Positions 3,200 to 35,018 of a stretch of 36,502 bases of DNA are shown piece by piece. Within the stretch, counting starts at the first letter, position 1. The number at the start of each line of letters is the position of its first letter. The position numbers and the translations under genes are program-made. Origin of the DNA: a virus; IMG/VR virus record IMGVR_UViG_3300037587_000410, positions 1 through 36,502 of that record. One strand, given 5' to 3'. The notes beneath the pieces are model-generated. The model worked only from the letters and a program-made list of their open reading frames with translations, had not been told where the DNA came from and searched no databases.

Positions 3200-4468
3200 T
3201 TATGTGAAGGTTACCGCAACACCGGCGTTCTGTGGGTTACACATCGTGATCCCGTACCAAGTAAACAAGCGATACCGGAATGACATATCTGCGAGATTTC
3301 CATCATAAACCAGATACATCGTCTGACCGTTGCTCATGGTATCAGAGATAACCTTCATGCCGTCGAACTCGGAGAACAACTGAGCAGGAATGGTTCCGCC
3401 GATCACTTCTATCGCAGACTTATCCCAGAACAGGTTGGACTTTGCAGACGCGTCGATGTTCAGGCGAGCCACAACATCAGCGTTGGCGATTGTAGTATCG
3501 ACGTTAGCGTACGCCTTTTCCAGCGCACTCAGCGCCGCATCGTCAGCCGCAATTGGCTTAGGAGAGATCCGGAGAGAGGTTCCGGTAGGCTTGGCCACGA
3601 TGGTAAAGGTCATCAGCTGACCGGTAGAGTTCTTATCAGCCAGGCCGACAGACTCGATAGCACCGATAGTCACCTTGTCGCCTACGTTGTAGGAAGCAGA
3701 AGCCGCTACAGGAATGACCGCAGAGCGATAATCCACGTTGGTAACAATGCCGGTTAGCGTGTCAACCGAACCAGCTTCAGGAGCAAATGACTGGTTGCCC
3801 GTCACTGTGGTGGCCGGGCTCGCACCGCCAACCAGGTTGGGCAGGTATGAGCCGGTAAAGATGTTAAATTCGGCGATATTTTCACCGATTTGGCCTTTAG
3901 TCCATGTTTCTGCAGGACGGCCCTGCAAGGTCTGACGAGCTGCCAGATCTTTACTGAACTTCAGGTTATCCCTGTCGTTCAAGACATAGCAGCGCTGGTC
4001 GTGCGCCTGCTGGGTTTCGTTCAACAGAGCTTGCCCTTCAGCGATGAAGTCGTAACCGCTTGCTGCGTTCGAACGGTAGAACTTTGAACCCTGCAAGGCA
4101 ACAACGCTGGCGATCTGTTTGTTAAGCTCAGTCACCTGCTGCTTTCCTGACCGCTCACCGGCCCGCTCCCAGAAACGCAAGTCTCGCATGTCGTCAGCGC
4201 GCTGCTTGATAAAGTCGTTCTGTGGCTCGCCAAGGATAGACGGGAATGTCTCCTCGATGATGTCCTGTTCTTGGCCGGAAAGATCCCAGCCTTCCAGAAT
4301 AGGGCGATGCTGTTCAACGGGCTGCCAGATCACATTGCCTGCGTTTTGCAGTGATGCGCCGTCCGGCTCATATCGCATGACCAGATCGACCAGCTGCATT
4401 TGGTCCTCGTAGGTTTCTTTGGTCTTTTCAAATAAGACCTCAACCGTCTTGCCTGTAGAAAGTGCCAT
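3200..4468 (-). CDS. Major coat protein, P22 gp5 family (HK97 fold with I-domain)
   Basis: A 422-residue protein, close to the 430 of P22 gp5. Matching segments include VIWQPVEQHRPILEGWDLS (P22: TIWMPVEQESPTQEGWDL), GEPQNDFIKQRADDMRD (P22: GEPDNDFFQLRADDLRD) and the I-domain end RISPKPIAADDAALSALEKAYANV (P22: [24 protein letters not shown]). The inserted beta-barrel I-domain spans roughly 225-335. The protein forms the icosahedral shell around the scaffold. It lies directly downstream of the scaffold gene, as in P22, and is followed by a hairpin that should hold down expression of later genes. Confidence 0.95.
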   Translation of the reverse strand: MALSTGKTVEVLFEKTKETYEDQMQLVDLVMRYEPDGASLQNAGNVIWQPVEQHRPILEGWDLSGQEQDIIEETFPSILGEPQNDFIKQRADDMRDLRFWERAGERSGKQQVTELNKQIASVVALQGSKFYRSNAASGYDFIAEGQALLNETQQAHDQRCYVLNDRDNLKFSKDLAARQTLQGRPAETWTKGQIGENIAEFNIFTGSYLPNLVGGASPATTVTGNQSFAPEAGSVDTLTGIVTNVDYRSAVIPVAASASYNVGDKVTIGAIESVGLADKNSTGQLMTFTIVAKPTGTSLRISPKPIAADDAALSALEKAYANVDTTIANADVVARLNIDASAKSNLFWDKSAIEVIGGTIPAQLFSEFDGMKVISDTMSNGQTMYLVYDGNLADMSFRYRLFTWYGITMCNPQNAGVAVTFT

Positions 4469-24054: not shown

Positions 24055-24531
24055 ATGGCAAATAAATCCAAGCAACGCAAATCGAAGAAATACAATCACC
24101 GGTCGGCAATGGATAAAACCATTCAGAAATCGCTCAAGGGGTTTTTTATACGATTCACTCTGGTCGATCCGTTGGGCGATATCGATAAGCCCTGCCAGGT
24201 CCAAGTCGGGTCAAGCAACCCGGTCGTGCAGCTCCGGCTCAAGAATGACTCCTTCTGGGAATGCATGCGCCATGTGCTACATGCTCGCAAATGTAAATGG
24301 CGCATCGTTTGTGAAATGGACTTCGAGAAGGACGGAAAGGTAGAGACTAAATCTCGGGAGATAGTTGGTATTGCCGCGCTTCCAGACCTTGATGAAGTGT
24401 ATCAGGACACTCTTGAGGCCATGTTTGATGATGCTGTAAGCAAGCGGTATATCGATCAATACGTAATTACTCGGGTTATCCAAGAGGTTTTATCTGGAGA
24501 GGTTATCAAAGATTGCGACTTCACTGAGTAG
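24055..24531 (+). CDS. Hypothetical protein with basic N terminus
   Basis: 158 residues from ATG at 24055; two earlier in-frame ATGs lack a ribosome site. The first 20 residues are very basic (ANKSKQRKSKKYNHRSAM), then a mixed alpha/beta domain (FFIRFTLVDPLGDIDKPCQVQV, WRIVCEMDFEKDG, EIVGIAALPDLDEVYQDT). Possible RNA or DNA contact through the N-terminal tail. No family recognised. Confidence 0.6.
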   Translation: MANKSKQRKSKKYNHRSAMDKTIQKSLKGFFIRFTLVDPLGDIDKPCQVQVGSSNPVVQLRLKNDSFWECMRHVLHARKCKWRIVCEMDFEKDGKVETKSREIVGIAALPDLDEVYQDTLEAMFDDAVSKRYIDQYVITRVIQEVLSGEVIKDCDFTE

Positions 24532-24544
24532 TCTGCTATAGTTT

Positions 24545-24632
24545 TTGAGCGCCTAGCTTTAGCGGGTGAAAAGCCGATTGCTCATCGGCCTGGCGCGACA
24601 GCCTCAAGAGCGCCAACCATGGAGCAATGGTT
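24545..24632 (+). ncRNA. Structured leader upstream of the HNH gene
   Basis: Nested complementarity over about 90 nt: TTGAG (24545) with CTCAA (24603), CGCC (24550) with GGCG (24592), a hairpin GCCGAT-TGCTC-ATCGGC (24573-24589), and AACCAT-GGAGCA-ATGGTT (24615-24632), whose loop holds the ribosome site of the HNH gene. The word GAGCGCC occurs near both ends. It may be a translational switch, processing site or homing-related RNA. Confidence 0.5.
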
Positions 24633-25169
24633 ATGATAACTCAAAAAAAACTAGTCACTCTTTTGGATTACAACCCGGATTCCGGTATTTTTGTATGGAA
24701 GAAAAGGTCATCTGATAATTCCTATTCTGAACGAATAATGAACTCATTCAACTCCAGACTTTCAGGAAAAGAAGCCGGCACCGTTACGCCTAATGGATAT
24801 CGCAGGATAATAATCCTAGGCCATTCAATGAGCGCTCACACGCTCGCGTGGATATATACGACAGGAGAGCCGCCTACTGGAGAAATTGATCATATTAACG
24901 GCAATAGAGACGGCAATAGATTTTGCAATATGCGAAATGTCTCTAGGCTTGAAAACATGAGGAACAAATCTCTATACAAAAACAATTCAACAGGATGCAT
25001 AGGAGTAAGCCCAGAAGGGAAAGGATGGAAATCAAGAATAAGGATTGAAGGGGTGGAGGTGTATCTAGGATATTTTTCTGTGCTTCAAGACGCTGTATCG
25101 GCCAGGAAAAAAGCAGAGATCAAATACAAATTCCACAAAAACCACGGGAGAATACGGAATCTCGTCTAA
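24633..25169 (+). CDS. HNH endonuclease with AP2 domain (free-standing homing type)
   Basis: 178 residues from ATG at 24633 (GGAG 8 nt upstream). AHTLAWIYTTGEPPTGEIDHINGNRDGNRFCNMRNVSRLENMRN (68-111) is the HNH core: His69, Asp86-His87, then the N-R...N-M-R helix. C-terminal AP2 DNA-binding domain: GCIGVSPEGKGWKSRIRIEGVEVYLGYFSVLQDAVSARKKAEIKY (121-165). Such genes spread as homing elements. Codon use looks more AT-rich than flanking genes, fitting recent transfer. It interrupts a block of small host-interaction genes. Confidence 0.9.
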   Translation: MITQKKLVTLLDYNPDSGIFVWKKRSSDNSYSERIMNSFNSRLSGKEAGTVTPNGYRRIIILGHSMSAHTLAWIYTTGEPPTGEIDHINGNRDGNRFCNMRNVSRLENMRNKSLYKNNSTGCIGVSPEGKGWKSRIRIEGVEVYLGYFSVLQDAVSARKKAEIKYKFHKNHGRIRNLV

Positions 25170-25239
25170 TCAGCATTGCTTTTGCATGGGTTTCCGTTTA
25201 TCTTTAGATGGCAGCTTAACCCGATTGATAGGTGACAAA

Positions 25240-25350
25240 ATGATTCTACAACTCCCCTCAAAAATGACAGTCGGCGAACTCATGATCATTATGGCCGCCG
25301 AATACCCCGGCAAGTGCCTTCGCTCCACCAGAAGCCGGAGGCAGTCATGA
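25240..25350 (+). CDS. Micropeptide, 36 residues
   Basis: Starts MILQLPSKMTVGELMIIMAA and ends in a basic tail with Ser and Arg. AGGTG lies 5 nt before the ATG, and the stop overlaps the next start (ATGA). An in-frame ATG at 25186 lacks a ribosome site. Typical of phage early micropeptides; role unknown. Confidence 0.55.
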   Translation: MILQLPSKMTVGELMIIMAAEYPGKCLRSTRSRRQS

Positions 25351-31496: not shown

Positions 31497-31682
31497 TTAT
31501 GGGTTTTGGTCTTGGTTCGGTAATTGTAATTGTTTAAATCCTCTGTTCTGATGCATTCGCCACCACCCTGAAATTACAGCGGTTGTGTAATTAAAAACAT
31601 ATAGCCCCACCATCACGGAGCCTGCGCACGGTGACAAAATGAATCCCGCGATGATCAATAGAAACCATGTCTGTGTCTTCAT
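31497..31682 (-). CDS. Small membrane protein before tailspike
   Basis: 61 residues with a strong N-terminal membrane segment (FLLIIAGFILSPCAGSVMVGLYVFNYTTAVISGWW) and a basic, Gln-rich tail. One-base overlap (TAATG) with the ejection-protein gene. Could be a superinfection or lysogeny-conversion-type peptide, or an assembly factor. Unknown. Confidence 0.6.
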   Translation of the reverse strand: MKTQTWFLLIIAGFILSPCAGSVMVGLYVFNYTTAVISGWWRMHQNRGFKQLQLPNQDQNP

Positions 31683-33634
31683 TACTGCCCCTTCAATAGC
31701 TCTTTGATGGCTTTGAACGCGCCTGCCTCGTTGATACCTCTGGCCTTCTCTGCCACCTTGCCGACCGCCACCACCACCGCATCAATCGCCCCCGCCTGGG
31801 TGGTGGTGGCGCTAACCCCTTGCTTAAGCGCCTGATCTATCTGCCCTTGGAATGAGGTTCTAGCCACCGGTCCGAATACTGAGTCAAGCTCGTCAACAAA
31901 CAACACTTGCGTTAACAGGTCATCTTGACCTAGCCCTGGGCCTTCTATTCTAAGCCTACCGCCGCCGTGCTTCTTAGCAACGGATTCTATCTCGTCAATA
32001 GAGTCAATAAGGCGAATCCTTGATTGTTGATTGCTTAGCGTCCTGCGCAGTAGCGTGCCCAATGCCTTGTCTGCATTACCTCCAGATAAATCCATCTTGC
32101 GTCCTGCAACATCCTGTATAGAATCTAAAGCGTTGATCGTCTCCGCATACACGGTGTTAGCTTGGTTGTATGCCGGGAAGTTGTCATCTAGGGACTTGTC
32201 TAACGCACGCCGAAACCCTTTTAAGACACGCTCCCCGTCCCCGCTAATCCCTGTTTTGACCTTTCCGAATGTCACATTGTTATCAATGATTCTTTTCATT
32301 GTGTGTACGTCTAGCGCGTCAATTCCGCCTCTGCTTTTGATATTCATTTGACGAATGACTTCTTTAATCGGGCCTCTGTCACCTGGTCCCAGCTGGGATA
32401 ATTCAAAACTGGGAGTAAATCCGCCTTTTCCGTTTGGTACGAGTTGGACCCCCAAGTTATCGAGCGCTTCCCCGAAGTCTGTAACAGCATCCAGCACATC
32501 GACCTGTTGGCCTTTTAAGCCCTTGGCTACTCGGTCTATCTCTTTCCCTGATGTTTTGTTTGCGTCCCTTATGACCTTGACACGATCCAAAAGAGTGTTG
32601 CCGGCAACGTCGCTAGGTCGATTCTTAGCGGCAAACAGCTTGTTTGCCTTCCCTCGCTCCATGATGTTGACCATCTCTTGCATCTTTAGCTTGTCTGCTG
32701 GTGTCGCCCCTTTAACCGCAGCAATAACTCCTTCGTCAAAGCCTTGGTTGATCGCGTCTACTGCTACTCGATCAGTTTTTACCCTTGGACCGCCGACATT
32801 AAGGAATTCTTGGAGTTTTGTCTGTGGTGGAGTTGGTAGTTGGGGCGCTGCTTGTGCTGCTCCCTTAGCGGGGGCATCTAGTTTAAATTTGGCTGTTTCA
32901 ACGTCAGTTGATCCGCCCTCGATAAGACGTGCTATGCGCTGCTTAGTTGGCGATTGAACCTTAAACAACGCTTCCGCTGTTTCTCTTCCCGCCTGCACTG
33001 CCGGGGTCAATGCCGCTCCTGTAGCTCTTGTGCCTCGCTGCGCCGCCTCTAACGCTCTGCCTGCTCCCTTTGTGCCTAACACAGTAGCAACGGCTTCAGG
33101 AGCTGTTTCAGCTATGGTCGCAGCTAATGGGCTACCAGTCTCTTCAAATACGCGCTCTCCTGCTGTCCTTGATACACCTTGCCCTTGTATGGCTCTTATT
33201 GTTTCCACAGCCTGGTCCAGCCCTTGACCACTAACTAACTCAAGAATCCCGCCAATACCTGAAAGCGGTATATTTACTATGTCGATTCCTTTCTGCACCA
33301 AATCACCAAGCGTTTCAAGGCCCGCTCGTCCCGCTTCGGTTCTAGGTTGAAATGTCCCTGCCTCTTGCACTGCTCTTACTGTTTCGCCAGCTTCTTCGCC
33401 CTGGAAAGGGATCGCTCCAATTCCAGCCAAGCCCCCCGCAATTGTCGCAGGTATAGCAGTAGCGACAGCAGCGATAGGCTCAATAATAGCCGCACCAGGG
33501 AAATCAGGCTGTTGAGCGCCGCCCAGCGCCCCTGTAGACTCCAGCTGAGTAAGGGCTTCAAGCTCTCCCTGCTCGTCGCCTAACTCATTCGACAGATCAG
33601 CCATCTCTTGTAGCTCTGCAGATGTCAGCGCCAT
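31682..33634 (-). CDS. DNA transfer/ejection protein, probably gp16-like
   Basis: 650 residues from ATG at 33634, one nt past the previous stop and 7 nt from GGGG; an earlier in-frame start would overlap the upstream gene. Hydrophobic Ala/Gly-rich segments early on (AAIIEPIAAVATAIPATIAGGLAGIGAI, SPLAATIAETAPEAVATVLG) could cross a membrane. Long helical middle and C terminus (AIDAVVVAVGKVAEKARG). Place (after gp7- and gp20-like genes, before tailspike) and size (P22 gp16 is 609) indicate the internal protein that helps DNA cross the inner membrane. Family call is by context and composition. Confidence 0.7.
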   Translation of the reverse strand: MALTSAELQEMADLSNELGDEQGELEALTQLESTGALGGAQQPDFPGAAIIEPIAAVATAIPATIAGGLAGIGAIPFQGEEAGETVRAVQEAGTFQPRTEAGRAGLETLGDLVQKGIDIVNIPLSGIGGILELVSGQGLDQAVETIRAIQGQGVSRTAGERVFEETGSPLAATIAETAPEAVATVLGTKGAGRALEAAQRGTRATGAALTPAVQAGRETAEALFKVQSPTKQRIARLIEGGSTDVETAKFKLDAPAKGAAQAAPQLPTPPQTKLQEFLNVGGPRVKTDRVAVDAINQGFDEGVIAAVKGATPADKLKMQEMVNIMERGKANKLFAAKNRPSDVAGNTLLDRVKVIRDANKTSGKEIDRVAKGLKGQQVDVLDAVTDFGEALDNLGVQLVPNGKGGFTPSFELSQLGPGDRGPIKEVIRQMNIKSRGGIDALDVHTMKRIIDNNVTFGKVKTGISGDGERVLKGFRRALDKSLDDNFPAYNQANTVYAETINALDSIQDVAGRKMDLSGGNADKALGTLLRRTLSNQQSRIRLIDSIDEIESVAKKHGGGRLRIEGPGLGQDDLLTQVLFVDELDSVFGPVARTSFQGQIDQALKQGVSATTTQAGAIDAVVVAVGKVAEKARGINEAGAFKAIKELLKGQ

Positions 33635-33635
33635 A

Positions 33636-35018
33636 TTATTGCCCCGCCTTAGCACGCAACTCAGCCAACCTTGCCCGTTTCCGATCTATATCCGCTGCGC
33701 CGGCCTGGTCTGCTCTATCGTCAATGGTGGTTACTAAGCTGGATGAAAGCCTGTCCCTAAGCTCTGTCACATCCTTGATAAACCGTTTCTCTGTGCGGGT
33801 GCGGTTTAATGCCCCTCCAGACAGATTCTGCAGGATCTTGATGTCAGTCTCAGATAAAACCCCGCTCATAAGATCAAGGTTGTCAGCCGTCAAGATATTA
33901 GCGGCTTCTTTAATATCAGCGATCAACTCGGATTCAGCATCAGAGAATAGGCGTACATCAATGTTGCCCTCGATCGATCCAAGTACGTCACCCAACTGCG
34001 TATTACCCAGGATGCCTGTTAAAAGCTCCACCGCCTTTGTTTGGAACACCTGCGCTTTCTTAGTCCTGCGCTGTTCTACCCGCACCTTCTCCGCTGATTT
34101 CAATCCTGTCTCTGTGGTCTTGGCTGCGTCCATAGCAGCTTGAAGTTGTTGAGTTTCAGCAGGGGAGGCATTAGGGAAGCTTTGCGCTATGATCTCTGGT
34201 GACGCCTGACGCCTTGATTGCTCACCCCCTTTGTCTATTTGCACCACCGCAGCTTTCACGCCATCTTTACCCCCTCCAGCCGCTGAGAACGCAGCAGATG
34301 CTTTATCTGCCACATCCGCGGGAAGGTTTGCTATTAGCTGAGGAGGTATTACTGGCGCTGCGACTGGCGCCCCTGTAGCAACGACCTTACCATCCTCAAA
34401 TCTTTGCTCTCCTGGCTTTAGCTGGAAGCCGGTGGGTTTCGGTGCAACTTGAGCAATCGGCCTGCCTTGCGCATCAAACCGCTGTTGGCCCTGACCAAGA
34501 GTAAACCCTTCCGATGGCTTCCGCTTCTCGCTGTAAGCCTTCCACTCCTGCTCATTCAGGTAAGCTGGGGCGATCATCTCCAGAGACTGAAGGAACTGCT
34601 CAGGGCTTTCATTTGCCTCTAGCGCAGCCTCAAGCGAATCGTCAAGATTTGTATCTTCGCCATATGTTGCTCGTAACGCATCGATTCTGCTCTGAATGAT
34701 CTGAGGGGCCTTTGATGGGTTGGCAAGCGATGCCCTAATAGTCAGCGCCATGTTGGCCTTTGTTGCCTCGTCGCGATGCCCCGCCGCCGCCGTGATGGTG
34801 TCGCGCATTTCTGGGTACTTGATCATCAGTCTGCCGACTTGATTGGGGTCGTTCGAATCAAAAGCCGCCTGTGCCTCTGTTGCCATCGCCTGCTTGGCCT
34901 GGGTAGCTTGTTCTTCCGCCTGCCGATCTCGATACCCCTTGGCTATGCCTCCGATACCCTGGACGATAGAGGGGCCGTAGCCGCCCATCGGAGATATATA
35001 ATATGGATTCTGCGCCAT
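33636..35018 (-). CDS. DNA ejection protein, gp20-like
   Basis: 460 residues from ATG at 35018 (AGGGG 7 nt upstream). The helical N-terminal half has AFDSNDPNQVGRLMIKYPEMRDTI and SPEQFLQSLEMIAPAYLNEQEWKAYSE, typical of phage DNA-ejection proteins. P22 gp20 has 471 residues. The middle is Pro/Gln/Ala-rich and low-complexity, then a helical C terminus (DLMSGVLSETDIKILQNLSGGALNRTRTEKRFI). It is packaged in the head and ejected with DNA. Confidence 0.78.
   Translation of the reverse strand: MAQNPYYISPMGGYGPSIVQGIGGIAKGYRDRQAEEQATQAKQAMATEAQAAFDSNDPNQVGRLMIKYPEMRDTITAAAGHRDEATKANMALTIRASLANPSKAPQIIQSRIDALRATYGEDTNLDDSLEAALEANESPEQFLQSLEMIAPAYLNEQEWKAYSEKRKPSEGFTLGQGQQRFDAQGRPIAQVAPKPTGFQLKPGEQRFEDGKVVATGAPVAAPVIPPQLIANLPADVADKASAAFSAAGGGKDGVKAAVVQIDKGGEQSRRQASPEIIAQSFPNASPAETQQLQAAMDAAKTTETGLKSAEKVRVEQRRTKKAQVFQTKAVELLTGILGNTQLGDVLGSIEGNIDVRLFSDAESELIADIKEAANILTADNLDLMSGVLSETDIKILQNLSGGALNRTRTEKRFIKDVTELRDRLSSSLVTTIDDRADQAGAADIDRKRARLAELRAKAGQ

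Follow-up and report, generated by a model that had tools for sequence, protein, structure and literature searches.

What does a folded RNA do directly in front of an endonuclease gene in a phage genome? The question is raised by a 36,502-nucleotide stretch of viral DNA (IMG/VR record IMGVR_UViG_3300037587_000410; hereafter the window), which by its appearance is a phage of about 36 kb with a DnaB-type helicase and NinG. A structured RNA leader had been predicted in front of its HNH gene, with the ribosome site in the loop of the last hairpin, and our analysis recovered every element of that structure. The protein encoded at 31682-33655 of the window resembles (34%) a putative ejection protein from Pseudoalteromonas phage H6/1. 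In Shewanella phage X14, too, NinG is found close to the HNH gene.

The leader and the gene behind it

Four helices lie within the 93 nt 5' of the HNH gene, namely an outer stem that encloses hairpins 1 and 2, followed by the ribosome-site hairpin. The features, in window positions, are:

24513-24542, + strand: promoter-like site, TTGCGA, 18 nt and an extended -10 TGcTATAGT ending at 24542 (one match, 0.7 expected by chance)
24547-24598, + strand: int-alpA-like three-way-junction RNA, candidate antisense RNA body (RF02996, 35.6 bits, E 1.4e-5; covariation)
24549-24553, + strand: 5' strand of the outer stem, GCGCC, pairing with 24592-24596 (6 of 7 helix-1 pairs changed on both sides)
24556-24567, + strand: hairpin 1, GCUU-UAGC-GGGU (helix 2 in the 21-core and 57-relative comparisons)
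24573-24589, + strand: hairpin 2, GCCGAU/AUCGGC (helix 3; 5 of 5 model pairs changed on both sides)
24577-24583, + strand: AUUGCUC, the putative antisense loop, able to pair with sites A and B (loop/site covariation; duplex energies)
24592-24596, + strand: 3' strand of the outer stem, GGCGC (covariation, 21-core alignment)
24608-24612, + strand: target site A, GAGCG (direct reading; equivalent site in relatives)
24615-24632, + strand: ribosome-site hairpin AACCAU-ggagca-AUGGUU (p 0.007 in the window against shuffled flanks; kept in relatives)
24621-24624, + strand: Shine-Dalgarno GGAG, in the hairpin loop, 8 nt 5' of the ATG at 24633
24622-24628, + strand: target site B, GAGCAAU, which takes in part of the Shine-Dalgarno (forms 7 Watson-Crick pairs to the loop)
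24633-25169, + strand: HNH endonuclease gene, 178 aa (PF13392 HNH_3, 4e-10; phrog_99, 2e-60)

The product of the HNH gene is likely a free-standing homing endonuclease. We placed its start at 24633 because the spacing from GGAG is right and the N-terminus, MITQ, is shared with homologues (MITQ in Shewanella phage X14, MINQ in Thalassomonas phage BA3). The promoter-like match of the window, taken alone, is no better than chance; among 136 viral relatives, -10-like boxes occur just 5' of the junction in 56%, against 22% in shuffled sequences. Transcription from this putative promoter would start near 24549, more or less where the outer stem begins.

Comparative evidence for the junction

The folding energy of the 93 nt leader is not significant (z -0.92; 38 of 200 shuffles fold as well), and single-sequence energy was therefore rejected as proof of structure; over 129 nt the z value is -2.20. 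By minimum energy the 93 nt take up a fold other than the junction, one that is nested and pairs the hairpin-2 loop with the ribosome site. It is the comparison among relatives, and not energy alone, that sets the structure apart from chance. In an alignment of 21 selected cores (the window, Vibrio, Shewanella, Thalassomonas and Pseudomonas phages, viral contigs and int-alpA members), 95.4% of cells are paired, against 76.1% after shuffling, and 13 of the 16 base pairs show changes on both sides (0/500 shuffles). Among 57 distinct relatives, in an alignment fitted to the model, 94.2% are paired and the covariation score is 0.637 against 0.197 (0/500). At the level of sequence comparison these data confirm that the junction is more than chance and that the leader structure is real, and the covariation on which the original prediction had made its structure depend is thus present.

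Of 113 loci, 88% have the ribosome-site hairpin, a share that falls to 57% when the flanks are shuffled, and in relatives the ribosome site lies in a loop as GGAG does in the window. In the same 113 loci, hairpins around site A are rarer than in shuffles (39% vs 51%). The 88% against 57% for site B indicates that the ribosome-site hairpin is a conserved part of the leader, which displays site B. The 5' half of the RNA is near-invariant in the Vibrio set, CCTAGCTTTAGCGGGTGAAA.

A cmscan at relaxed threshold matched 24549-24596 to positions 4-54 of the 71 of int-alpA, and the score falls 0.2 bits short of the gathering cut-off of 35.8 bits. Alignment and covariation with accepted members place the int-alpA outer stem, both hairpins and the conserved CUAG and GAAA segments in the window. 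The two share the three-way junction and the CUAG..GAAAAG core, and accepted int-alpA members show loop/site complementarity as well. The name of the family suggests integrase and alpA neighbours, whereas the window RNA precedes a homing endonuclease; in a Pfam tally of the genes after accepted members we saw one integrase and no alpA. The family was reportedly first described by Weinberg et al. in 2017. In the literature searched, int-alpA is mentioned in one paper, which gives it no function, and a search on alpA returned unrelated papers alone.

Loop, target sites and proposed mode of control

In nearly every copy of the RNA, the hairpin-2 loop is complementary to two downstream sites, A, whose median distance past the junction is 9 nt, and B, which lies at the Shine-Dalgarno, a median of 14 nt beyond A. 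When each of 116 distinct loops is scored with its own sites, the value is 11.24; swapping the loops lowers it to 7.47 (sd 0.15; z 25; 0/20,000 permutations). Both sites form at least five Watson-Crick pairs in 74% against 6%. The endonuclease-only subset gave 11.6 vs 7.4. Loops compared with upstream DNA show no excess (z -1.0), and the hairpin-1 stretch and the reversed loop show small excesses (z 3.8 and 6.2), so that part of the loop/site signal comes from relatedness and composition. The joint change of loop and sites can be read directly in single loci: loop AUUCAUAG with sites CUAUGA and CUAUGAgg in L003, loop AUUCGUUAC with GUAACGA and UAACGAgg in L005, loop CUCGACAC with GUGUCG and GUCGAGg in L006, and loop AACCUC with UGAGGU and GAGGUgg in Thalassomonas phage BA3 (L087).

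In the window, the duplex of the loop with site B has an energy of -8.1 kcal/mol and that with site A, which is weak (4 Watson-Crick pairs and one G-U), of -5.6 kcal/mol. Over all loci site A outpairs site B in two thirds of cases and is somewhat stronger on average. Since one loop serves two sites, a single RNA would be unable to hold A and B simultaneously. The alternative pairing that had been suspected in this leader thus exists in conserved form, between the hairpin-2 loop and its sites; the repeated word GAGCGCC that had hinted at it (exact copies at 24547-24553 and 24608-24614) is peculiar to the window, is not conserved in relatives and is not the switch.

Three viral contigs hold two RNA copies apiece; the loops of the two differ and each copy precedes a separate gene, the pattern that orthogonal pairs would give (L121, 954-1005 and 2160-2211; L137, 2448-2497 and 6872-6924; L206, 1675-1726 and 3844-3895).

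This arrangement recalls the C4 RNA (RF01695) of phages P1 and P7, which is processed by RNase P and acts in trans, whose binding to target messages partly covers the ribosome site, and which differs between P1 and P7 by a few loop changes that the target matches (PMC5320573). By annotation, P1 has the C4 RNA, then a2, then b2 just before the icd start. The P1 C4 and P4 regions both match the C4 model, whose three-way junction has the same topology as the window RNA. Shared with C4 are the position of the junction 5' of the target gene, two target sites between RNA and gene, and a hairpin loop complementary to the ribosome site, here 24577-24583 with 24622-24628. In contrast, C4 measures about 77 nt and reads b2 by a hairpin loop and a2 by the joint before the outer stem (in P1, read directly, b' is in the loop of the long hairpin and a' in that joint), whereas the window RNA has about 50 nt, a joint of 2 nt without a separate a' segment, and one loop for both sites. 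The C4 model found no match in 24500-25250 up to E 10, with P1 and P4 both matching. By the lack of the joint and the use of one loop for two sites the window RNA falls outside the C4 family, though it would work in a C4-like way. Pseudomonas phage Phipami28 (L069) carries an int-alpA RNA (2496-2563) and a full C4 RNA with c4-a1b1 target (3963-4048) within 1.5 kb, and one phage may therefore use both the small and the large form.

We consider it probable that the leader is a small C4-type antisense RNA that autoregulates the HNH gene by pairing of its loop to sites B and A. A promoter of its own would give rise to the RNA at the 5' end of the HNH message, and the RNA would fold as a three-way junction. 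Its loop AUUGCUC would pair with site B, held out in the loop of the ribosome-site hairpin (a loop-loop pairing), and the same loop could also pair with the single-stranded site A just past the junction. Pairing at site B would block ribosome entry, so that the HNH gene would be translated until enough RNA had accumulated. By analogy with C4 of P1 and P7, cutting may release the junction, which could then work in trans too, and the effect would be specific to each loop/target pair.

The main rival, which we rate as clearly less probable but worth serious attention, is a switch that works purely in cis without release of the RNA, the loop pairing either with A, so that the ribosome site stays open, or with B, so that it is closed, as decided by the timing of folding or by another factor. 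Site A would then be a decoy, a role that its somewhat stronger average pairing and its advantage over B in two thirds of loci would suit; RNA and targets are on one transcript within about 30 nt, and the nested minimum-energy fold of the window already pairs the loop with site B. Against this, C4, which is well studied and laid out in the same way, is processed and then acts in trans (PMC5320573), and the junction is conserved in compact form, preceded by a promoter-like box of its own.

A leader of riboswitch type, in which the near-invariant 5' half binds a protein or a small molecule and shifts the pairing, is in our judgement improbable. The 5' half of the Vibrio set is indeed more invariant than base pairing requires, but a ligand pocket would not need a loop that tracks the ribosome site, and the downstream genes show no metabolic theme; the conserved pairing of the loop to two sites argues for a C4-type antisense RNA rather than a ligand switch. 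A protein helper may act on top of the antisense pairing.

Hairpins at the ribosome site control translation of the homing genes I-TevI and segB of T4 and mobE of phage Aeh1 (PMC2988022), and the window likewise has a folded RNA around the ribosome site of a gene for a likely homing endonuclease. In the T4-type genes the ribosome site is hidden in a stem within one message, whereas the window has a separate junction with an antisense loop and displays the ribosome site in a hairpin loop. A simple sequestering leader of this kind, whose hairpin alone would lower translation with the junction as a stable 5' end, is known for phage homing genes (PMC2988022) but is very unlikely here, as GGAG is in the loop and not in the stem, and neither the joint change of loop and site nor the existence of the unstructured site A is explained by it.

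Distribution, mobility and meaning

The leader word is found exactly in many Vibrio phages, 5' of unrelated genes; a search for the exact Vibrio word in genomes gave no match. A covariance model (R1), built from the 21-core alignment, scored the window at 58.5 bits (E 1.5e-11), the window being related to a training sequence. It had 62 matches in the first locus set, some of whose loci overlap, and at least 135 further matches after two wider pattern scans of viral contigs, scans that were aimed at the motif, so that these counts are no unbiased census. Judged from these sequences, the loop/target device appears to be present in more than 100 other phages and prophages. The first viral pattern, GCGCCTAG..GAAAAGC, yielded the RNA in only three of 42 loci (L019, L021, L027), and the rest, chance-like or coding-like matches, were dropped; four pattern matches in genomes (L051, L054, L055, L057) were without structure by eye and were left out. 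Annotated coding sequences overlie the RNA at L058 (2499-2551), L004 (10-63) and L062 (2499-2550): in L058 and L004 the public endonuclease start is inside or before the RNA, and in L062 a hypothetical gene lies over it on the opposite strand.

In the Vibrio phages the next gene encodes a nuclease of varying type (GIY-YIG/T5orf172, HNH_3 with AP2, phrog_953 HNH or endonuclease VII-like). Over all loci, HNH_3 is matched by 24 of the 119 downstream proteins, HNH by 7, GIY-YIG and DUF1376 by 6 each and Bro-N by 1, and primosomal-protein phrogs have several matches among them. The genes after the RNA comprise several homing endonuclease families, replication proteins and an antirepressor. The DUF1376/primosomal-type replication genes (MxYYQFNIGD..., in L128, L131, L153, L191, L224 and others) form the second large group with the RNA besides the endonucleases, and their control by it is predicted.

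It had also been suggested that the RNA moves with the gene. Comparison with uninvaded relatives shows that in two lineages of Vibrio phages the RNA and the endonuclease were inserted jointly. The block 1181-1897 of L005, which contains the RNA (1200-1253) and the endonuclease, has no counterpart in phage 1.236. It is missing too from phage jenny 12G5, whose homology to L005 runs up to base 1180 and where the 3' border is less clear-cut. Phage 1.191 lacks the block 2474-3483 of L059, in which the RNA (2499-2548) and the endonuclease lie. For the window itself, no relative carrying the flanking genes was found from which insertion borders could be read. L058 and L060 are identical to L059 from upstream through the 5' half of the RNA, after which hairpin 2, the targets and the gene differ, and this breakpoint within the RNA fits an exchange in which loop, targets and gene travel together. 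An HNH gene need not come with the RNA, since four HNH relatives (L074-L077) gave no match to model R1 and Vibrio phage 1.265 (L086) has an HNH gene (1120-1749) at the same insertion place as L003 and L005 without a recognisable junction. This gene is preceded by a lone hairpin alone, perhaps a decayed RNA.

More tentatively, free-standing homing cassettes might carry their own trans-acting antisense immunity RNA. A resident cassette would then silence an endonuclease of the same loop type brought by a co-infecting phage, different loop types would ignore each other, and loop, targets and gene would be exchanged as a unit via the near-identical 5' half of the RNA.

Three-way-junction antisense control (C4), int-alpA as a listed family and the ribosome-site hairpins of T4-type homing genes (PMC2988022) were already known. 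In the literature searched, with the original int-alpA paper and preprints outside it, we found no description of int-alpA-type RNAs as apparent one-loop, two-site antisense regulators, nor of homing endonucleases that carry such RNAs. With the present proposal int-alpA gains a concrete, testable function and is linked to the C4 immunity RNAs of P1/P7 and P4. Antisense control would be extended from prophage immunity genes to phage homing endonucleases and replication genes, marine phages included, and the more than 100 natural loop/target pairs make specificity, cross-talk in co-infection and orthogonal translation switches directly testable.
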